Assembly: GCF_021391495.1 (NCBI RefSeq)
Contig: NZ_CP090063.1
Coordinates: 4,092,001-4,156,000 of the forward strand
DNA length: 64,000 bases
Reading direction: 5' to 3'
Origin: Amycolatopsis acidiphila
GTDB taxonomy: Bacteria; Actinomycetota; Actinomycetes; Mycobacteriales; Pseudonocardiaceae
Position 1 is the stretch's first letter, and the number at the start of each line of letters is the position of its first letter. This document shows, one piece after another, positions 9,712-27,126 of this stretch. The translations under genes and the position numbers were made by a program. Under the pieces are notes generated by a model that saw only the letters and a program-made list of their open reading frames with translations, did not search any database and was not told where the DNA came from.

Positions 9712-10812
9712 CTAGCCCGCGATAGCCCGGCCGACGGCCGCGCGCAGCCGCCTGCTCACCGCGACGAAACGCCGGAACTGCGGACCTGGCCGGGTGTCGC
9801 CACGCGCCGGGTTGCCCGCGTTCAGCCGCTCCCGCTGGGGAACCACCACGTACTTCGGGTCCTTTGTGGACTCCACACCGGCATGGAAGACACCGAACCG
9901 CTGCAGCGCGCTCGCGGTGAGCAACGCGAGACCGGACGCCACGGCCGCGGTGCGGCTGCGCCCGGCGAACAACGTGCCCACCGCACCGCCGACGTTCAGG
10001 TACTCCGCCGCGCGACGCAGCCGCTCCGGCTTGCCGGTCGTGTAGGCCTCGCCGACGAGACCGAGGCGCTGCGGCAGCAGCCGGGACGCGGCAACCTCCA
10101 GCCCCGCGCCCGCCAGGGCGAGCCGGCGGGCCGGGCCCGCCTGGGCGACCGACGCGAAGACCATGCCGAATCCGCCGCCGCTCGCGGCGGCCGAGCCGGT
10201 GAAGACGAACGGGAGGTACGCGTGCGCCTCGTGCCACGCGGGCACCGCCGTCTGGGACAGCAGGACCGCCGTGTACGACGCGAGACCCGGCGCGAAGGCC
10301 GCCGCGGACAGCCCGGCCGGGCGCGCCGCCCAGGTCACCAGCTTGCCCACCACGGTGCGCCGCAGCGCGCGGGGCATCAGCTCGGCGACGCCGCTCAGCC
10401 CGGCACCGGCCCCGTACGCCGTGAGGATCCAGGTGCCGACGCTCATCGGCGAGCTGGGCTTCGCGACCCGCAGCATGTGGTGGAACCGCTCGGGCCGGCC
10501 GAGGTCGCTGACGAGGAAGTAGGTGCTCGCGACGAGGCTGCCGAGCGCGCCCACCCGCCCCGCCGTACGCAGCGCCGGGCGGCCGGTCAGGTCCGCGCCC
10601 GCGGCGAGCATCGCCGACCCGGCGGACAGTCCGCCGGTGAACAGGTACGCGGCGATCTTCCACTCCCACACCGGGGGTTTGAGCACCGCGCGGCCGTAGT
10701 AGGAGCTGAACTCGGCCTTCGGCACCGCCGACTGCTCACGCGTGCCGCCGCCGCGGCCGAACATCTGCGCGTGGATGTCGGCGGCGCCCCGGTCGCTCGG
10801 CCGCTCCCTCAT
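9712..10812 (-). CDS. nrfD: NrfD/PsrC-type membrane subunit of formate dehydrogenase
   Basis: A 366-aa polytopic membrane protein starting with a hydrophilic N-terminus and then 'PPVWEWKIAAYLFTGGLSAG', the NrfD/PsrC signature with the quinone-site region. About eight hydrophobic segments follow. 'GRPERFHHMLRVAKPSSPMS' is the conserved loop after helix 3. These subunits bind quinone and lack haem, unlike the cytochrome b subunit FdnI of the E. coli enzyme. The start codon overlaps the stop of the Fe-S subunit gene by 4 bp (ATGA). It is the last gene of the selA-selB-formate dehydrogenase transcript. The family also serves other molybdopterin enzymes, so its assignment here rests on the operon. 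Confidence 0.88.
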   Translation of the reverse strand: MRERPSDRGAADIHAQMFGRGGGTREQSAVPKAEFSSYYGRAVLKPPVWEWKIAAYLFTGGLSAGSAMLAAGADLTGRPALRTAGRVGALGSLVASTYFLVSDLGRPERFHHMLRVAKPSSPMSVGTWILTAYGAGAGLSGVAELMPRALRRTVVGKLVTWAARPAGLSAAAFAPGLASYTAVLLSQTAVPAWHEAHAYLPFVFTGSAAASGGGFGMVFASVAQAGPARRLALAGAGLEVAASRLLPQRLGLVGEAYTTGKPERLRRAAEYLNVGGAVGTLFAGRSRTAAVASGLALLTASALQRFGVFHAGVESTKDPKYVVVPQRERLNAGNPARGDTRPGPQFRRFVAVSRRLRAAVGRAIAG

Positions 10813-11825
10813 CGCTTCCCCCGCCCCAGGAACGCCGACACCGCCGCGGCCACGAGCGCCGAGGCCGCCATCCCGGCGTACTTCCACATCGACGGCAGGT
10901 CCCGCGTCGGCACCACCGGGTCGGGCGGCAGCCCGTACACCTCCGGCTCGTCGAGCAGCAGGAAGAACGCGCCGTCGCCGCCCACCCCGTCGTCGGGGTC
11001 GTGCCCGTACAGCCGCGCCTCGGGCACGCCACGCTCGTGCAGCTCCTCGACGCGCCGGGCCGCGCGTTCGCGCAGCTCGTCCAGCTCGCCGAACTGGATG
11101 GAGTCGGTCGGGCACGCCTTGGCGCACGCGGGCTCCAGCCCGTCCTGCAGCCGGTCGTAGCACAGCGTGCACTTCCAGGCGCGCCCGTCGTCCTCGCGCC
11201 GGTCGATCACGCCGTACGGGCAGCCGGAAACGCAGTAGCCGCACCCGTTGCAGATGTCCTGCTGCACCACCACGGTGCCGAACTCGGTGCGGAACAGCGC
11301 GCCGGTCGGGCACACGTCGAGGCAGCCCGCGTGCGTGCAGTGCTTGCACACATCGGACGACATGAGCCAGCGGAAGTCCGTGCGGCTCTCGGCCCCGGTC
11401 GCGGCTCCGGGCGGTTCGAACGTGGGGATGCCCAGGTCCACCGCCGTGGTGCCCAGCTCGCCTCCCCCGCGCTCGGCCAGCTCGATCGCCGAGGCGACGG
11501 TGTCGGCCGAACGGCGGCTGCCCGACGGCCCGGTCGGCAGGCCGTGCAGGCCGGCGTCCTGCCCGCCCAGCGGCCGCGACTGCTCGACGAACGCGACGTG
11601 CCGCCACGAGTCCGCGCCCAGCATCCCGGTGTTGTCGAAGGACATGCCGAGCAGGTTGAACCCGTCCTCGGGTACCAGGTTCCACTCCTTGCACGCGACC
11701 TCGCAGGCCTTGCAGCCGATGCACACCGAGGTGTCGGTGAAGAACCCCACGCGTGGCGGGTGCTCCTCGTACCCCGCGTTGCCCGCCGGGTCGGCGAGTG
11801 GACCGTACAGGCTGTTGTCGGTCAT
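10809..11825 (-). CDS. fdnH: Formate dehydrogenase Fe-S (beta) subunit
   Basis: This 338-aa electron-transfer subunit has the four [4Fe-4S] ferredoxin pattern of FdnH-type proteins. Clusters appear at C35/C38/C41/C45 ('CIGCKACEVACKEW'), 'CKHCTHAGCLDVCP', 'CNGCGYCVSGCPYG' and 'CTLCYDRLQDGLEPACAKACP'. A C-terminal hydrophobic stretch ('MWKYAGMAASALVAAAVSAF') would anchor it to the membrane next to the NrfD subunit. Compared with E. coli FdnH it has an insertion of about 50 residues between the first and second cluster groups. It overlaps the alpha-subunit stop and the NrfD start by 4 bp each, so the three are translationally coupled. Confidence 0.93.
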   Translation of the reverse strand: MTDNSLYGPLADPAGNAGYEEHPPRVGFFTDTSVCIGCKACEVACKEWNLVPEDGFNLLGMSFDNTGMLGADSWRHVAFVEQSRPLGGQDAGLHGLPTGPSGSRRSADTVASAIELAERGGGELGTTAVDLGIPTFEPPGAATGAESRTDFRWLMSSDVCKHCTHAGCLDVCPTGALFRTEFGTVVVQQDICNGCGYCVSGCPYGVIDRREDDGRAWKCTLCYDRLQDGLEPACAKACPTDSIQFGELDELRERAARRVEELHERGVPEARLYGHDPDDGVGGDGAFFLLLDEPEVYGLPPDPVVPTRDLPSMWKYAGMAASALVAAAVSAFLGRGKR

Positions 11826-14800
11826 CCCTGATCCTCCGGCTCGGTGTGCGCGACCGGGTCCGCCCGGGTCGTGTCGATCCGGGTGCCCGTCTGCGGCGTG
11901 ACGCCGGCGCGCCGCCGGTACTCGGCGACGTACTCCAGCAGCGCGGGACCGCGCGGTCGGCGGCCCGGCTGGACGTCGCAGGTCGCGACCTTGCTCTCCT
12001 GGATGAACACGTTCGGATCCGCGACCACGCCGAGCAGGTCGTTCACCACGTCGCCGTCGACGAGACCGGTCTGGCCCCAGTGGTACGGCATCCAGACCTG
12101 GTGCACCACCCTGTCCTCGATGCGCAGCGGGGTCATCCGGTCGGTGACGAACACGCGCGCGTCGACCGCCGTGCGGCTGGTGACCACGTGCGCCCAGTCC
12201 AGGTGCGCCAGCCCGCGCTCGGTCGCGAGCTCGGGCGAGACCTCGACGAACAGGGCGGGCTGCAGCTCGGCCAGGTACGGCAGCTGGCGGCTCATCCCGC
12301 CCGCGGTGTGGTGCTCGGTCAGCCGTGCCGTGGTGAACACGAACGGGAACACCTCGCCGTGCGCCTCGGGTGGCGACGGGTTCGACGGGTTGTCCGCCCG
12401 CCCGTAGACGATCCGCACCGGGCTGGCCTGCTGCGCGTACAACTGGTTGCGCGCCGGGGACTCGTGCGGCTCGTAGTGCGTCGGCAGCGGCCCGTCGAGC
12501 ACGCCGTTCGGCGCGAACAGCCAGCCCTTGCCGTCGGCCTGCATGATGAACGGGTCGTCCCCGCGCAGCGCCTCGACGCCCACCGCGCCCTCGCGCGGCC
12601 GGTAGTCCGGCGGCTTGGTCTTCTCGAAGTCCGGCACGTCGTGCCCGGTCCACTCGCCCTTTTCCGGGTCCCACCAGATGAGCTTCTTGCGCTCGCTCCA
12701 CGGGCGGCCCTGCGGGTCGGCGGACGCGCGGTTGTAGAGCACCCGCCGGTTCATCGGCCAGGTCCAGCCCCACTCCGACTCGTAGGGCCCCTGCTCGTCG
12801 TGCGGCTTGCGGCGGGCGGCCTGGTTGACCCCGTCGGCATAGACGCCGCTGTAGATCCAGCAGCCGCAGGCGGTGCTGCCGTCGGACTTGAGCTCGGGAT
12901 AGCCGCTCACCTCGCGGCCGGTACCCACCTCGACGCCGCTCATGCGGCGCAGCACGTCCTCGCCCGAGGGCTCGTCGCCGTCCATCCGGTAGTCCCACGC
13001 CAGGTCCAGCAACGGCCTGTCCCGCTCGTCCGTCGAACCGGCGAGCTTCTCCCGGAGCCTGCGGCCCAGGTGGTAGGTGAACCACAGCTCGGAGCGCTGG
13101 TCGTCCTTGGGCTCGACCGCCTTCTCCCGCCACTGCAGCATCCGCTGCGTCTGGGTGAAGGTGCCGGCCTTCTCCACGTGCGACGCCGCGGGGAAGACGA
13201 ACACCTCGGTGCGGCAGGTCTCCGGGCTGATCTCGCCGGTCTCGATCTCGGGCGAGTCCTTCCAGAAGGTCGCGCTCTCGATCATCGCGAGGTCCCGCAC
13301 GACCAGCCAGTCCAGGTTCGCCATGCCGAGGCGCTGCAGCCGCCCGTGCGCGGAGCCGACCGCCGGGTTCTGGCCGAGCAGGAAGTAGCCGAACACCTTG
13401 CCGTCGACCATGTCCATGACCGTGCGGTAGGTGCCGTGGTCGCCGTTGATGCGGGGCAGGTAGTCGAAGCAGTAGTCGTTCTCCGCGGTCGCCTTCTCGC
13501 CCCAGTACTCCTTCAGCAGCGACACCATGTACGCGTCCGCGTTGTGCCAGAAGCCCTTCTGGTTCGTGCCGCGCACCTTGTCGATGTAGGAGGCCAGGTC
13601 CTCGTGCCGGGTGTCGGGCATCGGCAGGTATCCGGGCAGCAGGTTGAACAACGTCGGCACGTCGGTCGAGCCCTGGATGCTGGCGTGCCCGCGCAGCGCG
13701 AACACGCCGCCGCCGGGGCGGCCGATGTTGCCCAGCAGCAGCTGGATGATCGAGCCGGCGCGGATGTACTGCGCGCCGAGGGTGTGCTGGGTCCAGCCGA
13801 CGCTGTAGACCAGCGCGGCGGTGCGCTCGCGGCCGGAGTTCTCCGTCCAGGCCCGCGCGACGCGCAGGAACTGCTCCGCGGGCACGCCGCAGACCTTCTC
13901 CACCATCTCCGGGGTGTAGCGCGCGTAGTGCCGCTTGAGGATCTGGTAGACGCAGCGCGGATCCTGCAGCGTCGGGTCGGCGGCGATGTCCCCGGCCCCG
14001 CCCTCCAGCGGCGGCCCGCCGGAGCCGAGCTGGTCGGGCGCGGCCTGCGACTTGGCCCTGCTCCCGCCGCGGCCCATCGACTCCGTGGACTCGTAGTGCC
14101 AGCTCGCCGGGTCGTAGGAAGCGCTTTCGTGGTCGTAGCCGCTGAACAGCCCGTCGAGGTCCTCGGTGTCCTGGTAGCTCTCGTCCACCAGGAAGGACGC
14201 GTTGGTGTACGCGGTGACGTACTCCCGGAAGTCGAGCTCGTTGGCCAGGATGTAGTTGATGACGCCGCCGAGGAAGGCGATGTCGGTACCCGCGCGCAAC
14301 GGGACGTGCGTGTCCGCGACCGCGCTCGTGCGGGTGAACCGCGGGTCGACGTGGATCACCTCGGCGCCGTGCGACTTGGCCTCCATCACCCACTGGAACC
14401 CGACCGGATGGGCCTCGGCCATGTTCGAGCCCATGATGATGACGAAGTCGGAGTTGGCCAGGTCCTGCTGGTAGTCCGTCGCACCGCCGCGACCGAAGGA
14501 GGCTCCCAGACCGGGAACCGTGGCGGAGTGTCAAATACGGGCCTGGTTCTCGATCTGCACGGCGCCCAGCGCGGTGAACAGCTTCTTGATCAGGTAGTTC
14601 TCTTCGTTGTCGAGGGTGGCGCCGCCGAGGCTCGCGATCCCCATCGTCCGGCGCAGCCTGCGGCCGTGGCCGTCGGTCTCCTGCCAGCCCTTGGCGCGGG
14701 CCTCGATGACCCGGTCGGCGACCATGTCCATCGCCGTGTCGAGGTCGAGCTCCTGCCAGTCCTTGCCGTACGGCGCCCGGTAGCGGACCTTCCGCACCCG

Positions 14801-15100
14801 CTGCGGCCCGGTGACCAGCTGCTTGCTGGCGGACCCCTTGGGGCACAGGCGACCGCGGGAGATCGGGCTGTCCGGGTTGCCCTCGATCTGGATGACCTGC
14901 TCATCCCGGACATACACCTTCTGCGCGCAGCCGACCGCGCAAAAAGGACAGACGGAATGCGCCACCCGGTCGGCGGCGGCGGTACGCGGCATGAGCCCGG
15001 CGGAGAGCTTCGACTGCGCCGCCTTGCCGCGGCCCAGCGGGTCCGGGCCGGCGACCTGCCGATACACCGGCCACGACCGGATCCAGTCCCCGATGCCCAT
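11822..15100 (-). CDS. fdnG: Selenocysteine-containing formate dehydrogenase alpha subunit (UGA decoded as Sec)
   Basis: Read through the in-frame TGA at 14531-14533, this is a 1092-aa molybdopterin enzyme that oxidises formate to CO2. The N-terminal [4Fe-4S] ligands are C51, C54, C58 and C86 ('CPFCAVGC' and 'GRLCPKG'). The UGA is residue 190 in 'ENQARI-U-HSATVPGLG', aligning with the Sec of E. coli FdnG ('NQARV-U-HGPTVA'). After it come 'FVIIMGSNMAEAHPVGF' and the rest of the molybdopterin domains. There is no twin-arginine signal, unlike E. coli FdnG, so the protein should stay in the cytoplasm. AGGAAGGGG precedes the ATG. A standard gene caller will split this into two genes or call it broken. 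It lies 63 bp downstream of selB on the same strand. Confidence 0.95.
14501..14533 (-). promoter_or_regulatory. UGA codon plus bacterial SECIS hairpin in fdnG
   Basis: On the mRNA strand, UGA (14533-14531) is followed by 11 nt and then GGTTCCC-GGTCT-GGGAGCC (14519-14501). That is a 7-bp stem with one G-T pair and a 5-nt apical loop. The E. coli fdhF SECIS has the same 11-nt spacing, the same GGUU start of the stem and a GGUCU-containing loop whose G and U contact SelB. The element lies inside the coding region, as bacterial SECIS elements do. SelB binding is inferred from this match. Confidence 0.88.
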
Positions 15101-15163: not shown

Positions 15164-16870
15164 TCACGGTTTCGCAACGACCACCGTCCGCGTGCCGTCC
15201 GGAGCCCGCCGCGTCACCCGGCGGGCGTCGAGCTGTTCGAGCAACGGCACGGCGACCCGGCGGGTGGTGGACAGCGCACGGCGGGCCTCGCTGACGGTGA
15301 ACGGCTGCGGCACGGCGGCGAGCAGGGCCGCCGCCTGCTCGAACGCATCGGGCCCGAGCACGACGCCGTCGGCGATCCTGGTCAGCCTTCCGGCCCGGAC
15401 GGCGGCGGCGATCCCACGGGAGTCCAGGCCGACATCGGCCAGCTCGCCGGCTTCGGGCGCGCGGAACGGCTCCGCCGCCAGCCACTCCTCCACCGCCCGC
15501 ACGGCCTTGTCCACCCGGGCGGGCAGCCCGGCCCCGGGCCGCCGCACGAGGCCGTCGGCGACTTCGAGACCGGTGCCGGCCAGCGCCTCGGGGACGAGCT
15601 CGGCCGCGGGCAGCCCCAGCTCCTGGCGCAGGACCTCCAGTGGCATCCCGGCGGCGATGTCGTGTTCGGACGTCCATCGCCGCACCGAGGTCACGGCCTG
15701 CGCGCGCCGCTGTGCCCACCATGCGGGGTCGAGGACCCACTCGCCGATGCGCTCCCCGGTCGCGGGCAGGCCCATCGCCCGCAACTCGGTGGCACGCGCG
15801 AACTCCGGCGGCCGGACGCGGCCGCTCGCCAGCTCCTCCGCGCGCGCCCGCGCGGCGCCACGGCGCCGCAACTCCGGCGGCCGCACGTCCAGCACCTCGA
15901 CACCCGCGGCGATGCGGTGCTCGCCGGGATCGCGGAGCAGCCCGGTGTCGCCGATCCGCAACGGCAACGGGCGGGCGAGGCGCAGTCGTGCCGCGTTCGT
16001 CCCCAATGGACGGACGTGCACCGGGACGGCAGCGGATCCCAGGTGCAGCACCAGCTGCCGGTGCAGCTCGCCCGGTGACCGCAGGGCGACGTCGATCTCG
16101 GTGGTGGGCAGCCAGGCGCCGGGGGTGCACACCGGGTCGCCGCGGCCGATCTGCTGCCGGTCGGCGCCGCGCAGGTTCACCGCGACCCGCGCCACCGCGG
16201 TGACCTCGTGCTGCTCCTCCCCCAGCGACTGCAGCCCCCGCACGCTCACCCGCCGTCCGGCGTGCTCGAGCTCGTCGCCGACCCGCACCGTGCCGGCGGC
16301 GAGGGTGCCGGTGACGACCGTGCCCGCGCCGCGCACGGTGAACGACCGGTCGACCCACAACCGCACGTCCGCGCGCGGGTCCGGCGCGGGCAGCCGGTCG
16401 ACCATCGCGACCAGCCCGGCGCGCACGCTGTCGAGGTCGGCGCCCAGGATCACCGCGGGCTCGGCGAGCGAGGTGCCGGCGAACTGTTCGCGCGCCTGCT
16501 CGATCGCGCGCCCGGGGTCGGCGAGGTCGGCCTTGCTGATCACCAGCAGCGCCTCGCGGACGCCGAGGGCGTCGAGCGCGGCCAGGTGCTCGCCCGACTG
16601 CGGCATCCAGCCCTCGGTGGCGGCGACGACGAACAGCACGGCCGGCACCGGGCCGACGCCGGCGAGCATGTTCGCGACGAACCGCTCGTGCCCCGGCACG
16701 TCGACGAACGCGAGCCTGCGGCCGTCGAGCTCGGTCCAGGCGAACCCGAGGTCGATGGTGAGGCCACGCCGCTGCTCCTCGGCGAGGCGGTCCGGCCACA
16801 TCCCGGTGAGCCGGTGCACGAGCGTCGACTTGCCGTGGTCGACGTGCCCGGCCGTGGCTACGACGAACAT
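15164..16870 (-). CDS. selB: Selenocysteine-specific elongation factor SelB
   Basis: A 568-aa GTPase that brings Sec-tRNA(Sec) to UGA codons marked by a SECIS. The G domain shows the P-loop 'GHVDHGKST' at residues 8-16, then 'RRGLTIDLGFAW', 'DVPGHERFV' and 'ISKADLADPG'. EF-Tu-like beta-barrel domains follow. The C-terminal third contains winged-helix segments, ending '...VSEARRALSTTRRVAVPLLEQLDARRVTRR', used to bind the SECIS hairpin. The length is a little under the E. coli protein (614 aa). Its start overlaps the selA stop by 13 bp. It lies 63 bp before the selenoprotein gene it serves, so supply and use are on one transcript. Confidence 0.95.
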   Translation of the reverse strand: MFVVATAGHVDHGKSTLVHRLTGMWPDRLAEEQRRGLTIDLGFAWTELDGRRLAFVDVPGHERFVANMLAGVGPVPAVLFVVAATEGWMPQSGEHLAALDALGVREALLVISKADLADPGRAIEQAREQFAGTSLAEPAVILGADLDSVRAGLVAMVDRLPAPDPRADVRLWVDRSFTVRGAGTVVTGTLAAGTVRVGDELEHAGRRVSVRGLQSLGEEQHEVTAVARVAVNLRGADRQQIGRGDPVCTPGAWLPTTEIDVALRSPGELHRQLVLHLGSAAVPVHVRPLGTNAARLRLARPLPLRIGDTGLLRDPGEHRIAAGVEVLDVRPPELRRRGAARARAEELASGRVRPPEFARATELRAMGLPATGERIGEWVLDPAWWAQRRAQAVTSVRRWTSEHDIAAGMPLEVLRQELGLPAAELVPEALAGTGLEVADGLVRRPGAGLPARVDKAVRAVEEWLAAEPFRAPEAGELADVGLDSRGIAAAVRAGRLTRIADGVVLGPDAFEQAAALLAAVPQPFTVSEARRALSTTRRVAVPLLEQLDARRVTRRAPDGTRTVVVAKP

Positions 16871-18138
16871 GCCCGCACCGCCGCCACCAGCACGTCGTCG
16901 TCCGCCGCGTCGACCATCCGCAGGTCCAGCAGGCAGTGCCCCGCTTCGAGCCGCCCGACCACCGGCGGGACGCCCTCGCGCAACGGCCTCGCGTACGACT
17001 CGGGCAGCCGCACGCCCGCGCTGGGCAGCTCCACGCCGGGCGCGCCGCCGCCGCCGACGGCCGCGACGCAGTCGACGGCCTCGGCGCCGGGCAGTGCCGC
17101 CGCGATCCGTTCCGCGCGCGCCCGCAGGTCCGCCTGCTTCGCGGAAAGCGCTTCCACGACCGGCGGCGGCGGGCCGAGCACGGTGGCTTCGAGCGCGGCG
17201 AGGGTCAGCTTGTCCACCCGCAGCGCGCGGGCGGCGGGATGTCGCCGCAGCCGTTCGACCAGGCCGGCCTCGCCGAGCAGCAGCCCCGCCTGCGGGCCGC
17301 CGAGCAGCTTGTCGCCGCTGGCGGTGACGAGGTCCGCGCCCTGTTTCAGCGCCGTCGTCGCGTCCGGTTCGTCCGGCAGCACCGGATGCGGGGCGAGCAG
17401 GCCCGAGCCGATGTCGACCACCAGCGGCACGTCCAGCTCCGCCAGCTCGGCGATGCCCGCGGCGGAGGTGAAGCCGGTGACCTGGAAGTTCGACGGGTGC
17501 ACCTTGAGCACGAACCCGGTGTCCGGCCCGATCGCCCCGGCGTAGTCGCGCAGGCTCGTCCGGTTGGTGGTGCCGACCTCGCGGAGCCGGGAGCCGGCGG
17601 CGGCGAGCAGCTCGGGGATGCGGAACCCGTCGCCGATCTCGACCAGTTCCCCGCGGCTGAGCACGATCTCCTTGCCGGGGGCGAGGGTCAGCGCCGCGAG
17701 CAGCAGCGCGGCCGCGTTGTTGTTCACCACGTGCACGCCGCCCGCGGCCGGTACGGCCCGGGCGAGCGCGGCCAGCGCGCCGCGACCCCGGCGTGCGCGA
17801 CGTCCGGTCGCGAGGTCGAACTCGACGTCGGTGGCGCGGCCCGCGGTGACCACGGCGTCCAGCGCGGCCTGCGACAGCGGCGCCCGGCCGAGGTTGGTGT
17901 GCACGACGACGCCCGTGGCGTTGAGCACCGGCCGCAGGCTCGTGGCGGCCGCGGGCAGCGCGGCGACCGCGTGCTCGGCGACCTGTTCCGGCTCGATCTC
18001 CCCCGCCCGCGCGCGCTGCTGCGCCTCGGCGACGACGGCCTTCACCAGCGCGCGGCCGAGGGTGCGCTCGGCCGCGGCGAGGCGGGGGTGCGCGAGCACC
18101 ACGTCGGTCCGGGGGACGCGCCGCCGCGGGTCACCCAC
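16858..18138 (-). CDS. selA: L-seryl-tRNA(Sec) selenium transferase SelA
   Basis: A 426-aa PLP enzyme that converts Ser-tRNA(Sec) to Sec-tRNA(Sec) using selenophosphate. Landmarks are 'LNATGVVVHTNLGRAPLS', 'VNNNAAALLLAL'-type small-residue region, 'LVVDIGSGLL' and the PLP lysine in 'VTASGDKLLGGPQAG'. E. coli SelA is 463 aa, so the length is normal for the family. A GTG at 18138 is chosen because a start further upstream would run into the tRNA-Sec gene, whose 3' CCA lies 17 bp before. The gene begins right after selC on the same strand and overlaps selB by 13 bp. Confidence 0.94.
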   Translation of the reverse strand: MGDPRRRVPRTDVVLAHPRLAAAERTLGRALVKAVVAEAQQRARAGEIEPEQVAEHAVAALPAAATSLRPVLNATGVVVHTNLGRAPLSQAALDAVVTAGRATDVEFDLATGRRARRGRGALAALARAVPAAGGVHVVNNNAAALLLAALTLAPGKEIVLSRGELVEIGDGFRIPELLAAAGSRLREVGTTNRTSLRDYAGAIGPDTGFVLKVHPSNFQVTGFTSAAGIAELAELDVPLVVDIGSGLLAPHPVLPDEPDATTALKQGADLVTASGDKLLGGPQAGLLLGEAGLVERLRRHPAARALRVDKLTLAALEATVLGPPPPVVEALSAKQADLRARAERIAAALPGAEAVDCVAAVGGGGAPGVELPSAGVRLPESYARPLREGVPPVVGRLEAGHCLLDLRMVDAADDDVLVAAVRACSS

Positions 18139-18155
18139 GGCGGGGCTCCCGGTGG

Positions 18156-18250
18156 TGGCGGAGGCGGACGGGAATCGAACCCGCCAGCGACAGGACCTGC
18201 CGCTCAACGGTTTTGAAGACCGCGCCGGTCACCAGACCGGATACGCCTCC
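18156..18250 (-). tRNA. selC: tRNA-Sec (anticodon UCA), selC
   Basis: The acceptor stem GGAGGCG (5' end at 18250) pairs with the CGCCTCC-type 3' strand. The anticodon loop CTTCAAA with anticodon TCA sits on the stem GCGGT/ACCG-. It has the long extra arm of tRNA-Sec (GAGCGGCAGG...CCTGTCGCTG) and a T arm GCGGGTTCGATTCCCGT. The body is 92 nt, longer than ordinary tRNAs, and the 3' CCA is encoded (18158-18156). Its product carries Ser, then Sec, to the UGA of the formate dehydrogenase gene in the same operon. Confidence 0.95.
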
Positions 18251-18311
18251 CTGGACCATGGCGCCCATCATGGCAAGCTCCGGGCTGCGGCGCGAACCCG
18301 GCCGGGGCAGC

Positions 18312-19313
18312 ATGGACGCCATGGCCTACCGACTGACCCAGTACGCGCACGGCGGCGGGTGCGCGTGCAAGATCCCGCCGGGCGAGCTCGAGGACATCGT
18401 GCGCGGGCTGGTCAAGGCCGAGCCGCGCGACCCGGTGGGCGAGCTGCTCGTCGGCCTCGAGGACGGCGACGACGCGGCGGCGGTGCGCATCGAGCACGAC
18501 ACGGCCGTGATCGCGACCACGGACTTCTTCACCCCGGTCGTCGACGACCCCTACGACTGGGGCCGGATCGCCGCGGCCAACGCGCTGTCGGACGTGTACG
18601 CCATGGGCGGGCGCCCGGTGGTGGCGGTGAACCTGCTGGGCTGGCCCCGCGAGGTGCTGCCGTTCGAGCTGGCGGCCGAGACGCTGCGCGGCGGGCTCGA
18701 CGTGTGCGGTGCGGCCGGTTGCCACCTCGCCGGCGGGCACAGCGTGGACGACCCGGAGCCCAAGTACGGCCTGGCCGTCACCGGGATCGGGGATCCGGAC
18801 CGGTTGCTGCGCAACGATTCCGGCCGGGCGGGGGTGCCGCTGTCGCTGACCAAGCCGCTCGGCCTCGGCGTGCTCAACTCCCGGCACAAGGCCACCGGCG
18901 AGCGGTTCGCCGAGGCGATCGAGGTGATGACCACGCTCAACGCCGACGCCTCCCGGGCCGCGCTGGCGGCCGGTGTGCGGTGCGCGACCGACGTGACCGG
19001 GTTCGGCCTGCTCGGCCATCTGCACAAGCTGGCCCGCGCCAGCGGGGTCACGGCGATCGTCGACTCGGCAGCGGTGTCCTATGTGGACGGGGCACGGGAA
19101 GCCCTCGCCGCCGGGTACGTCAGCGGCGGCACGCGCCGAAACCTCGACTGGGTGGCGCCGCACGTGGACCTCTCGGCCGTGACCGAGCAGGAGGCCCTGC
19201 TGCTCGCCGACGCCCAGACCTCGGGCGGCCTCCTGGTCGCCGGCGAGATCCCGGGCGCCCCGGTCATCGGCGAGCTGGTGCCACGACAGGAGCACACCAT
19301 CGTGGTGCGCTGA
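18312..19313 (+). CDS. selD: Selenide, water dikinase SelD
   Basis: A 333-aa enzyme that makes selenophosphate from selenide and ATP, the selenium donor for SelA. The N-terminal 'LTQYAHGGGCACKIPPGEL' holds the active-site Cys and Lys. The Cys position is Cys here and not Sec, so selD needs no UGA decoding. The AIR-synthase-like ATP-binding body has 'ATTDFFTPVVDDPYDWGRIAAANALSDVYAMGGRP' character and 'ATDVTGFGLLGHL'. The ATG at 18312 is preceded by GGGG; a second ATG at 18321 is also possible. It is divergent from selC-selA-selB, and the gap between selC and selD is only 61 bp. Confidence 0.95.
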   Translation: MDAMAYRLTQYAHGGGCACKIPPGELEDIVRGLVKAEPRDPVGELLVGLEDGDDAAAVRIEHDTAVIATTDFFTPVVDDPYDWGRIAAANALSDVYAMGGRPVVAVNLLGWPREVLPFELAAETLRGGLDVCGAAGCHLAGGHSVDDPEPKYGLAVTGIGDPDRLLRNDSGRAGVPLSLTKPLGLGVLNSRHKATGERFAEAIEVMTTLNADASRAALAAGVRCATDVTGFGLLGHLHKLARASGVTAIVDSAAVSYVDGAREALAAGYVSGGTRRNLDWVAPHVDLSAVTEQEALLLADAQTSGGLLVAGEIPGAPVIGELVPRQEHTIVVR

Positions 19314-24050: not shown

Positions 24051-24512
24051 CTACCTTCCTTTTCTCTTCTCCGCGCACGCGGGGCACCAGCCCCAGAACA
24101 CGATCTCCGCCTCGTCGACCTCGAACCCCCGGTCCTCGCCGGGCGTGAGGCACGGCGCAGCACCCACCACGCAGTCCACGTCCTCGGTGCGCCCGCAGCC
24201 GCGGCAGACCAGGTGGTGATGGTTGTCCGCGACCCGGCGCTCGAAGCGGGCCGGATGGCCGGCGGGCTGGATGGAGCGCACCAGCCCGGCGTCCACGCAG
24301 GCCCGCAGCACGTCGTAGACGGCCTGGTGGGAGACCGAACCCAGCTCGTCGTGCACCCCGGCGCGCACCGCCTCGGCGGTCGCGTGCGGGTGGCTTGCCA
24401 GCCAGGTGAGCACCGCCCGGCGAGGGGCGGTGATCCGCAGCCCGGCGGAGCGCAGCGAGGCCGCCGCGTCGGTCGTGCTGTCGCGCTGGCCCGAAGGGCC
24501 TGGGGTCGGCAT
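24051..24512 (-). CDS. Fur-family peroxide/iron-responsive repressor (CatR/PerR-like)
   Basis: A 153-aa Fur-fold regulator. The N-terminal winged helix is '[30 protein letters not shown]' and '[22 protein letters not shown]'. The metal sites are '[19 protein letters not shown]' and a C-terminal 'WCPAC', so two CxxC pairs form a structural Zn site as in PerR and CatR. It is cotranscribed with katA (2-bp gap), which points to peroxide-responsive control of the catalase. A TGGAA/TTCCA repeat lies directly upstream. Whether iron or peroxide is the signal cannot be read from sequence. Confidence 0.88.
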
Positions 24513-24531
24513 CCTGCCCGCCTACCCGTTC

Positions 24532-24544
24532 TGGAATGGTTCCA
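24532..24544. promoter_or_regulatory. Candidate operator of the fur-katA operon
   Basis: TGGAA-TGG-TTCCA is a 13-bp palindrome in an AT-rich patch (24530-24556) 20 bp before the Fur-type start. An autoregulated Fur/CatR repressor would be expected to bind here. Confidence 0.5.
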
Positions 24545-24599
24545 AACAATATTCAGGTCAGCGCGATCCCGGCGCGAGCCCGCGGAGACCCGCGCCAGG

Positions 24600-24789
24600 T
24601 CACGCAGCAGGTGGCTCACCGGTCCGGCCCCCCGGGACCGGCTGCTCGTGTTCCTGGACGTACTGCTCGGGGTCGATGTCGCTGACCTCGAGCCCGCGAG
24701 TGCGCCCGCCGGACCGCGGCGTGCACGCCGTCGCGGATCGCCGGAACCCGGTCGTGGTCGTCGAGGACCAGCTTCGTGATGTCAGGCAT
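24600..24789 (-). pseudogene. Internally deleted hemerythrin-domain (HHE) protein remnant
   Basis: From ATG 24789 the frame reads 'MPDITKLVLDDHDRVPAIRD' and 'GVHAAVRRAH', which resembles the start of actinomycete HHE hemerythrin-like proteins plus an internal piece. A different frame then reads 'GLEVSDIDPEQYVQEHEQPV' to a stop at 24600, the usual kind of C-terminus for that family. The middle, with most of the expected His ligands, is missing. Intact homologues are around 150-200 aa, from memory. I read this as a decayed gene with two or more deletions, lying between the fur-katA operon and hypF. The family call rests on short segments. Confidence 0.5.
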
Positions 24790-24879
24790 GGCCCACCCGC
24801 GGTCGCACGATCGCGGCGTACTCGCGGGCCGGGGAGACGGAAACTCGACTGGGCCGCCGCCGGGGCGCAGACTCGACGT

Positions 24880-27126
24880 GTGAGCGAGCGTGTCCGCTTG
24901 GCCGTGCGCGTCGACGGGGTCGTGCAGGGGGTCGGCTTCCGGCCCTTCGTGCACGCGCTCGCCGACCGGTTCGGCCTCGCCGGGCACGTGGGCAACGATG
25001 CCGCCGGGGTGTTCGCCGAGGTCGAGGGCGCGCGGCAGGCCGTGGCGGACTTCCTCACGGCGGTGCGGGAGCAGGCGCCCCGGCTCGCGGTCGTCGAACG
25101 GGTCACCGCGGCCGAGATCGCCGGACTGGGCGAGACGGGTTTCCGGATCGTGCCGAGCCCGGCGGGCGGCGGCGCGCGGACGCTCGTCTCCGCCGACAGC
25201 GCCACCTGCGACGACTGCCTGCGCGAGCTGCACGACCCGGCGGACCGGCGCTACCGCTACCCGTTCGTCAACTGCACGAACTGCGGGCCGCGGTTCACCA
25301 TCGTGCGCTCGGTGCCCTACGACCGGCCGGCCACGACGATGGCGCCCTTCCCGATGTGCGCGGACTGCGCGCGCGAGTACCACGACCCCGGCGACCGGCG
25401 GTTCCACGCGCAGCCGGTGTGCTGTCCCGCCTGCGGGCCCGCCCTGCGGCTGCTCGGCGGACCGGCGGGCGACCCGATCGAGTCCACTGTGGACCTGCTC
25501 CGCACCGGGCACGTGCTGGCGATCAAGGGGCTCGGCGGCTACCACCTCGCGGTCGACGCGTGCGACGACGCGGCCGCCCGCCTCCTGCGCTCGCGCAAGC
25601 ACCGCGAGGACAAGCCGTTCGCGGTGATGGTGCCCGGCCTGGCCGCCGCCCGGGAACTGTGCGAGGTGGACGACCTCGCGATCCGGCTGCTCACCGACCG
25701 GCGACGGCCGATCGTGCTGCTGCCCCGCCGGCAAGGCAGCGGCGTCGCCGGGGCGGTCGCCCCCGGCAACCGGCAGCTGGGCGTCATGCTGCCGTACACG
25801 CCGCTGCACCACCTGCTGCTGGAGCGCCTCGCCGGCCCGATCGTGCTGACCAGCGGCAACATCTCCGACGAGCCCATCGGGTACCGGGACGACGAGGTGC
25901 GCGAACGGCTCGGGCCGATCGCGGACGCGTTCCTGGTGCACGACAGGGCGATCCACATCCGCACCGACGACTCCGTGGTCCGGCCCTTCCGCGGCCGGGC
26001 GCAGCTGATGCGGCGCTCGCGCGGCTACGTGCCCGAGCCGGTGACCGCTGCCTTCCCGCGGCACGTGCTGGCCTGCGGGGCCCAGCTGAAGAACACCTTC
26101 TGCCTGGCGAAGGACCGGCGCGCGTTCCTCTCGCACCACATCGGCGACCTCGAGAACTACGAGACCCTGCGGTCGTTCACCGAGGGCATCGAGCATTTCC
26201 GGCGCCTGTTCGACGTGCACCCCGAGGTGATCGCGCACGACCTGCACCCGGAGTACCTGTCCACGAAGTACGCCCTGGAGCAGGACGACGCCGAGCTGGT
26301 CGGGGTGCAGCACCACCACGCGCACATCGCCGCCTGCCTGGCCGACAACGGGGTGGCCGGCCCCGTGCTCGGCGTGGCGTTCGACGGGCTGGGCTACGGG
26401 CCGGACGGCACGATCTGGGGCGGTGAGCTGCTGCTCGCCGACCTGGCCGGGTTCACGCGCGTGGGGCATCTCGCCCCGGTGCCGATGCCGGGCGGGACGG
26501 CGGCGATCAAGCAGCCGTGGCGGATGGCGGCCGCCTACCTCGACACAGCCTACGGCGCGGGCGTCCCCGGCCTGGACGTGGTGCGGCGCAACGAGTCCCG
26601 CTGGCCGGACGTGGTCGCGCTCGGGCACCGGGCGATCAACGCGCCGCTGACTTCCAGCGCGGGCAGGCTGTTCGACGCGGTCGCCGCGATACTCGGGACC
26701 CGCGACGCGATCAACTACGAGGGCCAGGCGGCGGTCGAGCTCGAACAGCTCGCCGACCCGGGTGAGCGCGGGGCCTACCGGAGCACGATCACGCCCGGTG
26801 AGCCACTGGTCGTCGTGGGCGCCGACCTCGTCGTGTCCGCCGTGGACGAGCTGCGGGCCGGCGTGCCGGTGCCGCTGATCGCCGCCCGGTTCCACAACGG
26901 CGTGGCGGCGGCGATCGCCCACGCGTGCGTGACGTTGCGGGAGCGGACCGGGGTGGGCACCGTCGCCCTGTCGGGCGGGGTGTTCCAGAACCTGCTGTTG
27001 CTGGCGCGCACCGCCGAGGCGCTGGAGCGGGCCGGGTTCGCCGTGCTGACCCACTCCCGCGTCCCCGCCAATGACGGCGGCGTCAGCCTCGGGCAGGCTG
27101 TCGTGGCCGCCGCGCAGGCCGGCTGA
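24880..27126 (+). CDS. hypF: Hydrogenase maturation carbamoyltransferase HypF
   Basis: At 748 aa this is a full-length HypF, which makes the carbamoyl group that becomes the CN- ligands of the [NiFe] centre and passes it to HypE. Domains in order are acylphosphatase ('VDGVVQGVGFRPFVHAL', about residues 5-90), two zinc-finger repeats ('CDDCLRELHDP...CTNCGPRF' and 'CADCAREYHDP...CCPACGP', about 105-190), a YrdC-like domain ('IKGLGGYHLAVDA') and a Kae1-like carbamoyltransferase domain ('GVQHHHAHIAACLADN' and 'ALSGGVFQN'). The GTG start at 24880 gives the normal N-terminus. It is on the plus strand and converges on the rest of the hyp genes, so it needs its own promoter in 24790-24879. Confidence 0.95.
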   Translation: MSERVRLAVRVDGVVQGVGFRPFVHALADRFGLAGHVGNDAAGVFAEVEGARQAVADFLTAVREQAPRLAVVERVTAAEIAGLGETGFRIVPSPAGGGARTLVSADSATCDDCLRELHDPADRRYRYPFVNCTNCGPRFTIVRSVPYDRPATTMAPFPMCADCAREYHDPGDRRFHAQPVCCPACGPALRLLGGPAGDPIESTVDLLRTGHVLAIKGLGGYHLAVDACDDAAARLLRSRKHREDKPFAVMVPGLAAARELCEVDDLAIRLLTDRRRPIVLLPRRQGSGVAGAVAPGNRQLGVMLPYTPLHHLLLERLAGPIVLTSGNISDEPIGYRDDEVRERLGPIADAFLVHDRAIHIRTDDSVVRPFRGRAQLMRRSRGYVPEPVTAAFPRHVLACGAQLKNTFCLAKDRRAFLSHHIGDLENYETLRSFTEGIEHFRRLFDVHPEVIAHDLHPEYLSTKYALEQDDAELVGVQHHHAHIAACLADNGVAGPVLGVAFDGLGYGPDGTIWGGELLLADLAGFTRVGHLAPVPMPGGTAAIKQPWRMAAAYLDTAYGAGVPGLDVVRRNESRWPDVVALGHRAINAPLTSSAGRLFDAVAAILGTRDAINYEGQAAVELEQLADPGERGAYRSTITPGEPLVVVGADLVVSAVDELRAGVPVPLIAARFHNGVAAAIAHACVTLRERTGVGTVALSGGVFQNLLLLARTAEALERAGFAVLTHSRVPANDGGVSLGQAVVAAAQAG

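Follow-up and report, generated by a model that had tools for sequence, protein, structure and literature searches.

A 64,000-nucleotide stretch of the Amycolatopsis acidiphila genome (contig NZ_CP090063.1, positions 4,092,001 to 4,156,000; "the window", in whose coordinates positions are given below) carries on its minus strand fdnG, the gene for a formate dehydrogenase alpha subunit, which is interrupted by an in-frame UGA at codon 190. The best explanation, almost certain on the sequence evidence assembled here, is that UGA-190 is recoded as selenocysteine (Sec) through a bacterial Sec insertion sequence (SECIS), giving a full-length, selenium-dependent enzyme subunit. Actinobacterial Sec formate dehydrogenases are already known, and this Sec site is of the ordinary kind; a Sec-encoding UGA is described in the accessible parts of reports on Actinomycetospora chiangmaiensis (PMC7176365), Amycolatopsis mediterranei (PMC4048454) and Corynebacterium aurimucosum (PMC2830990). 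Comparison with relatives defined the actinobacterial fdnG SECIS on the basis of covariation, its natural loss in one cysteine (Cys) clade serving as a control, and exposed a constraint on the codon directly 5' of the stop. This preceding-codon rule was unexpected and appears to be new; its proposed function is hypothetical.

The fdnG frame (15100-11822) has stops only at codon 190 and at the terminal codon 1093, and the read-through protein scored 1936.5 bits against NCBIfam NF041513 (curated cut-off, 1400), placing it within this family, from which no difference was found. A protein search of 394 genomes of the host's class found matches in 109, the host included, and gave 112 loci. The codon aligned to position 190 was TGA in 88 loci, TAG in one, TGC in 21 and TGT in two (23 Cys loci), in agreement with the first-pass annotation of this DNA, which had placed TGA 14531-14533 at the Sec position of fdnG and had proposed an alignment to other actinobacterial fdnG genes as a check. 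We refer to the 88 TGA loci and the TAG locus as the 89 Sec loci of the class (71 distinct rows). Sec FdnG was present in 88 of the 394 sampled genomes, host included, as well as in other classes of the phylum; given also the published actinobacteria, the element is no peculiarity of this host. Among the matches listed first, similar genes belonged to Mycobacterium, Streptomyces, Amycolatopsis and Prauserella, and 11 plasmid-borne homologues that were read had TGA (8) or Cys (3).

A mechanical listing of open reading frames splits the gene at codons 189/190, as expected if it were a pseudogene or the TGA a sequencing error, with an enzyme ending at residue 189. We consider this extremely improbable, since TGA is conserved at the same codon in 88 of the 112 loci, the window's among them, the frame stays open for 902 further codons, and the genomes with such a gene mostly have a tRNA-Sec. 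A tRNA-Sec match of at least 60 bits was found in 84 of the 88 genomes with Sec FdnG, versus 2 of the 21 with Cys FdnG only; the 60-bit line is our own, the Rfam cut-off being 47, and matches of about 47-55 bits are widespread. In relatives, most protein matches run almost from end to end of the protein and contain a single internal stop, and so gave no sign of a product ending at residue 189. A sel gene lay inside the fetched 8 kb at 76 of the 89 Sec loci and at none of the 23 Cys loci, some contigs ending early. Clustering of sel genes with Sec formate dehydrogenase is likewise described, in the sections available, for Corynebacterium (PMC2830990) and for FDH1 of Actinomycetospora (PMC7176365); in Actinomycetospora, a SECIS was predicted by bSECISearch and formate removal was shown to be selenium-dependent.

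We then considered the hairpin downstream of the UGA. The 30 nt that follow the UGA fold into 11 nt, a 7-bp stem and a 5-nt loop at -11.5 kcal/mol. We compared this element with the bSECIS consensus, taken from the accessible text of PMC13188914, in which the apical loop has 3-9 nt, the upper stem 4-16 bp and the first two loop positions a G, with 16-37 nt from UGA to loop, a free energy of -7.5 kcal/mol or lower and no required bulge. The window hairpin has a 5-nt loop on a stem of 7 bp (6 conserved), a GGUCU loop with the second-position G in 89/89 Sec loci, and 18 nt between UGA and loop at -11.5 kcal/mol. Across the 71 distinct rows, 94.8% of pair cells were standard and 37 cells were changed on both sides, and none of 500 shuffles reached either value. 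Three pairs had changes on both sides (4/500 shuffles) and eight further pair types appeared (37/500 shuffles); sliding the stem partner lowered pairing to 32-66%. The hairpin thus stands above chance because it is conserved across loci, not by folding alone. RNAalifold, unaided, drew the same six inner pairs in the Sec set and nothing in the Cys set. All six were standard in 83 of the 89 Sec loci and in 0/23 Cys loci. The outermost pair, 14519/14501, was weakly kept (70%), indicating that the conserved stem has 6 bp rather than the 7 bp that the annotation had proposed; its GGUCU loop and 11-nt spacing stood.

The predicted class hairpin is built of three C-G pairs under the loop, a covarying pair (columns 18-30), a U at column 17 facing A or G (rarely U), and then a G-C pair. 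Pair 18-30 took five standard types (CG, UA, UG, GU and GC), and the base opposite column 17 was A (51 of the Sec loci), G (34) or U (four). The loop was GGUCU in 72, AGUCU in 11 and AGUUU in six, with G23 and U24 in 89/89. In other classes of the phylum we examined 56 Sec loci, drawn from 112 matching genomes (16 returned and 40 hand-picked; 10 same-class loci were excluded as already counted), and 43 formed the six inner pairs without any shift of register. Eight of the 43, judged by eye, had the loop-closing pair 21-27 swapped on both sides from C-G to G-C (L331, L332, L336, L342, L350, L357, L371 and L372). A covariance model (R1) recovered only this element in the host genome (8.18 Mb), the next matches having E-values of 4 and 9. 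Over the 394 class genomes 95 matched, through the fdnG loci of the Sec type, seven low-scoring ones of the Cys type (34.6-43.5 bits) and one fragment in G006; no new selenoprotein family emerged from this search. The fragment (L269, contig C96 of G006, at the contig end) is a second fdnG cut just after the SECIS hairpin and followed, by eye, by a transposase-like frame.

The stem could instead be a by-product of the conserved amino acids V-P-G-L-G rather than a selected RNA element, as L-G is conserved in Sec and Cys proteins alike and several stem and loop bases fall in conserved codons. Comparison with the Cys homologues and among the Sec loci makes this very improbable. The Cys homologues keep G-L-G, yet none of the 23 has all six inner pairs, and their pairing (62.1%) is close to that of shuffles (61.0%). 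At codon +7 they use all four Gly codons, whereas every Sec locus of the class has GGU (72) or AGU (17). Position +6 is Pro CCC in 89/89 class Sec loci versus Ala (14), Val (7) or Ser (2) in Cys loci, and this Pro is missing in 21 of the 56 Sec loci outside the class. Pair 18-30 covaries, and in one locus, L103, pair 16-32 changed from G-C to A-U together with amino-acid changes. The Cys loci form one clade within the Sec loci (support 0.997 in a tree built without this region), indicating one Sec-to-Cys switch followed by drift, not many switches.

Several observations weigh against a functional Sec site with this hairpin. The 64-nt stretch proposed for folding in the annotation folded no better than its dinucleotide shuffles (z 0.17; 110 of 200 shuffles were as good). 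The native stem had a predicted probability of only 0.05 and 0.27 in longer stretches (-30/+60 and -45/+90), because other GC-rich folds compete. Pairs 19-29, 20-28 and 21-27 under the loop are C-G in 89/89 and never vary in the class set, and 13 of the 56 other-class loci do not show the hairpin in this register, to which the comparison was confined; one of the 13 is compatible with the bulged form. The Sec/Cys contrast, with its 23 Cys loci in one clade, is a single event. Four genomes with Sec FdnG (G022, G058, G222 and G370) have no 60-bit tRNA-Sec match, and a SelB-level match is likewise missing from two of them, G222, with a completeness rating of 100%, and G370, with one of 63%. Finally, a phmmer comparison of the window SelB with E. 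coli SelB was significant over residues 3-337 only, so that its winged-helix end rests on a match to PF09107 and on a multiple alignment, in which this end and E. coli SelB have an R-R/K ... L-E-x-L/F-D ... T-R-R segment in common. With these points counted, Sec-190 with a bacterial SECIS is still nearly certain, given the homology, the covariation, the contrast with the Cys loci and the sel genes next to fdnG; in particular, the stem was kept and covaries in the 89 Sec loci, where the annotation had named its absence from relatives as grounds for rejection.

At the G222 locus (L145, contig C43), the Sec fdnG has an intact hairpin, and the genome has only an EF-Tu-level SelB match and no tRNA-Sec match. 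An assembly gap (the contig ends just after fdnI) or real loss of the Sec machinery is possible there. Of the 101 genomes with a tRNA-Sec of at least 60 bits, 15 had no FdnG match at E 1e-100; their Sec may go into other proteins.

The bulged U and G23/U24 matter in the E. coli SECIS. In E. coli fdhF, the UGA is followed by 11 nt and then GGUUGCAGGUCUGCACC. The E. coli genes fdhF, fdnG and fdoG resemble the class loci in their UGA-C context, in the 18 nt from UGA to a GGUCU (fdhF) or AGUCU (fdnG, fdoG) loop, and in G23 and U24. They differ in that their predicted stems have one unopposed U, at column 17 in fdnG and fdoG and at column 18 in fdhF (39- and 45-nt folds), whereas column 17 is opposed by a base in 89/89 class loci, whose 3' arm is one base longer than that of E. 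coli fdnG. The window hairpin thus has the G23/U24 loop and no E. coli-type bulged U; "E. coli-like", as the annotation had called it, holds for the spacing and loop, which equal those of fdhF, and not for the stem. Of the eight plasmid-borne homologues with TGA, four proteobacterial ones (L274-L277) fold with column 17 unopposed. The other four have the unbulged form, namely those in an alphaproteobacterial Indioceanicola locus with the actinobacterial-type motif (L272), in Thermomicrobium (L270) and in the actinobacteria L279 and L280. Since the bSECIS consensus requires no bulge, the unbulged stem is a variant within the known class. A plasmid of the alphaproteobacterium Indioceanicola profundi (L281) carries an actinobacterial-type Sec formate dehydrogenase with an unbulged hairpin and with selA, selB, selD and tRNA-Sec within ~10 kb.

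In one class genome, G390 (L075, L181), the Sec codon is TAG and a tRNA of the tRNA-Sec family, which ARAGORN labels tRNA-Pyl, has the anticodon CUA; the host belongs to the same order. This TAG codon, CUA tRNA and hairpin of the same form resemble the case of Geodermatophilaceae, for which a tRNA-Sec with anticodon CUA is described in the accessible text of PMC5330540; the window system itself is UGA/UCA.

We next focused on codon 189, directly 5' of the stop. Across the 89 Sec loci, this codon was AUU in 58, AUA in 28 and GUU in three, never AUC, and therefore ended in A or U in 89/89, while AUC made up 3225 of the 3362 remaining Ile codons of the same genes (96%). In the window fdnG, ATT-189 is the sole non-ATC codon among 35 for Ile. 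Among 1,034 codon columns (93% GC at third positions), the third base was A or T in at least 99% of the loci only at codons 189, 190 (the stop) and 197 (the SECIS loop), with the next column at 52%. Within the class, conservation of the preceding codon thus equals that of the SECIS loop; the single sampled locus that decodes UAG has such a codon too, and the Cys clade does not. In the UAG locus the codon before the stop is AUA, indicating that in this one case the rule is independent of UGA. A set of 80 Sec loci from named genomes had AUU in 76 and AUA in four, versus AUC in 2732 of 2794 Ile codons elsewhere. These loci are the best 80 of 595 or more matches and do not form an independent sample, at least one contig (L228, G373:C28) being apparently shared with the 89 loci. 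The same three columns led in these loci, followed by codons 203 (88%) and 188 (68%). A promoter reading, in which ATT-TGA-CA would supply TTGACA, was set aside, as the hexamer does not arise where the codon is ATA (28 of the 89 loci).

Outside the class, the bias before the stop is weaker. The 56 other-class loci had AUA (39), GUU (7), AUC (6), UUG (2), AUG (1) or AUU (1), that is, an A- or U-ending codon in 47, and AUA accounts for 179 of the 1695 Ile codons elsewhere in these genes; its commoner use there reduces the strength of the bias. Thermomicrobium Sec formate dehydrogenase has AUA before UGA. In E. coli the codon is GUC, in contrast to AUU, AUA or GUU in the host class. Older E. coli work reportedly deals with UGA context and an "extended SECIS", to judge from reference titles.

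The A- or U-ending codon might reflect chance inheritance, or a relaxed choice of codons within a single lineage, rather than a signal. Such an origin would suit the eight proteobacterial Sec formate dehydrogenase genes (the three of E. coli included) with GUC before UGA, the C- or G-ending codon in 9 of the 56 other-class loci, the commoner AUA there and the relatedness of the sequences. Against such an origin stands the FdnG tree, on which parsimony counted 21 switches between U and A at the third base of codon 189, with no C or G among the 89 loci, and 12 disjoint clades with support of at least 0.9 hold both AUU and AUA. Against it, too, are ten other conserved Ile columns that are 90-100% AUC, and the Cys clade, in which the preceding codon is GUC (12) or GUG (11). 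We therefore regard chance or relaxed choice as somewhat unlikely. The Sec version of another formate dehydrogenase family, TIGR01591, could have provided an independent test of the rule, but no inner stop was present among the matches listed for the 80 searched genomes (of the 101 with a tRNA-Sec of at least 60 bits), and so no such test was obtained.

Alternatively, the preceding base might be held at U or A so that the UGA is not drawn into a helix, as a matter of RNA structure and not of decoding in the ribosomal P site. In the window sequence, a C at this base led to predicted pairing of the U and G of the UGA (the U was unpaired with probabilities of 0.27, 0.28 and 0.05 at three lengths), and U or A left the U of the UGA free (0.76-1.00). 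On the other hand, C raised the SECIS stem probability in two longer stretches and G gave mixed results, in this one sequence, and ribosomes open the region before the UGA is read. We judge this structural explanation unlikely.

By analogy with known families, we infer the following chemistry, SelB binding and Sec insertion. SelA and SelD would make Sec-tRNA-Sec (anticodon UCA), and SelB would carry it, its C-terminal winged-helix domain binding the hairpin 11 nt downstream at loop bases G23-U24. This contact would bring the tRNA to the UGA before release factor 2, and the resulting alpha subunit of formate dehydrogenase would be full-length and selenium-dependent, its Sec residue lying at the molybdenum/tungsten-pterin centre. 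During the competition between SelB and the release factor, the preceding codon would occupy the P site, and AUU, AUA or GUU there could form the 5' part of the signal, shifting the contest between the two. Decoding of AUU and GUU relies on G-U wobble and that of AUA on a lysidine tRNA; a weak or unusual codon-anticodon pair may underlie such a P-site effect, base identity or local RNA structure being other readings. We advance tentatively, at a little short of an even chance, that the Sec signal of Actinomycetota has a 5' half, in which the P-site codon must be AUU, AUA or GUU and slows or weakens termination or favours SelB. A 5' half of this kind would complement the compact, unbulged SECIS. 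Release factor 2 competes for UGA, and Sec recoding in E. coli reaches 30-40% in vivo, according to the accessible text of PMC4513850. If functional, the constraint would be relevant to the long-standing question of how SelB prevails over the release factor when a stop codon is read, and to designing systems for Sec insertion in high-GC hosts. No statement of a codon rule before bacterial Sec UGA was found in the available portions of the open-licence literature, PMC5373646, PMC4513850, PMC8659212, PMC8704476 and PMC3834832 included, nor was a comparative analysis of the hairpin or the pre-UGA codon found in those of PMC7176365, PMC4048454 and PMC2830990.

The features of the locus are collected in the table. 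The genes selA, selB, selC and selD, which mark the Sec-decoding trait, all lie within the window.

Features of the fdnG-sel locus (window coordinates)
Feature	Position	Strand	Basis or remark
fdnI-like membrane subunit, 366 aa	9712..10812	-	Open frame; comes after fdnG-fdnH in most relatives
fdnH, iron-sulphur (beta) subunit	10809..11825	-	ATG overlaps fdnG stop
fdnG, formate dehydrogenase alpha, 1092 residues with predicted Sec-190	11822..15100	-	NCBIfam NF041513 formate_DH_Act; read-through
SECIS hairpin GGUUCCC-GGUCU-GGGAGCC (predicted), loop 14508-14512	14501..14519	-	Starts 11 nt after UGA; folds and covaries
Putative Sec-encoding UGA, codon 190 of fdnG	14531..14533	-	In-frame TGA; aligned codon in homologues
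ATT, codon 189, directly 5' of UGA; proposed 5' part of recoding signal	14534..14536	-	Codon bias
selB, Sec-specific elongation factor, 568 aa	15164..16870	-	TIGR00475, 250.5 bits (cut-off 242.25)
selA, Sec synthase	16858..18207	-	TIGR00474, 423.7 bits (cut-off 267.9)
selC, tRNA-Sec, anticodon UCA	18160..18250	-	RF01852, 83.2 bits; ARAGORN
selD, selenophosphate synthetase, divergent	18213..19313	+	TIGR00476, 387.8 bits (cut-off 125)

The selC gene was the sole match above the RF01852 family cut-off in the genome (8.18 Mb, one contig). The open frame of selA starts within the tRNA-Sec gene, from which we infer a true start downstream of 18160. Similarly, the longest selD frame on the plus strand (from 18213) overlaps the tRNA-Sec gene on the minus strand (18160-18250), and a selD start at ATG 18312 or 18321 is likelier than the listed start within the tRNA gene. 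If selD began near 18312, a short stretch between it and tRNA-Sec would remain as a divergent promoter region. The fdnH product scored 192.3 bits against the formate dehydrogenase beta profile TIGR01582, under its cut-off of 334.7 (10809-11837 searched), and the fdnI-like label was assigned by eye from sequence and position. A long plus-strand frame at 24406-27126 resembles, by eye, the hydrogenase maturation protein HypF. Elsewhere in the host genome, a second formate dehydrogenase-like gene (G000:C1:2506079-2508100) scored 916.9 bits against TIGR01591, over the cut-off, and has no inner stop, so that formate oxidation in the host need not rely on selenium alone.

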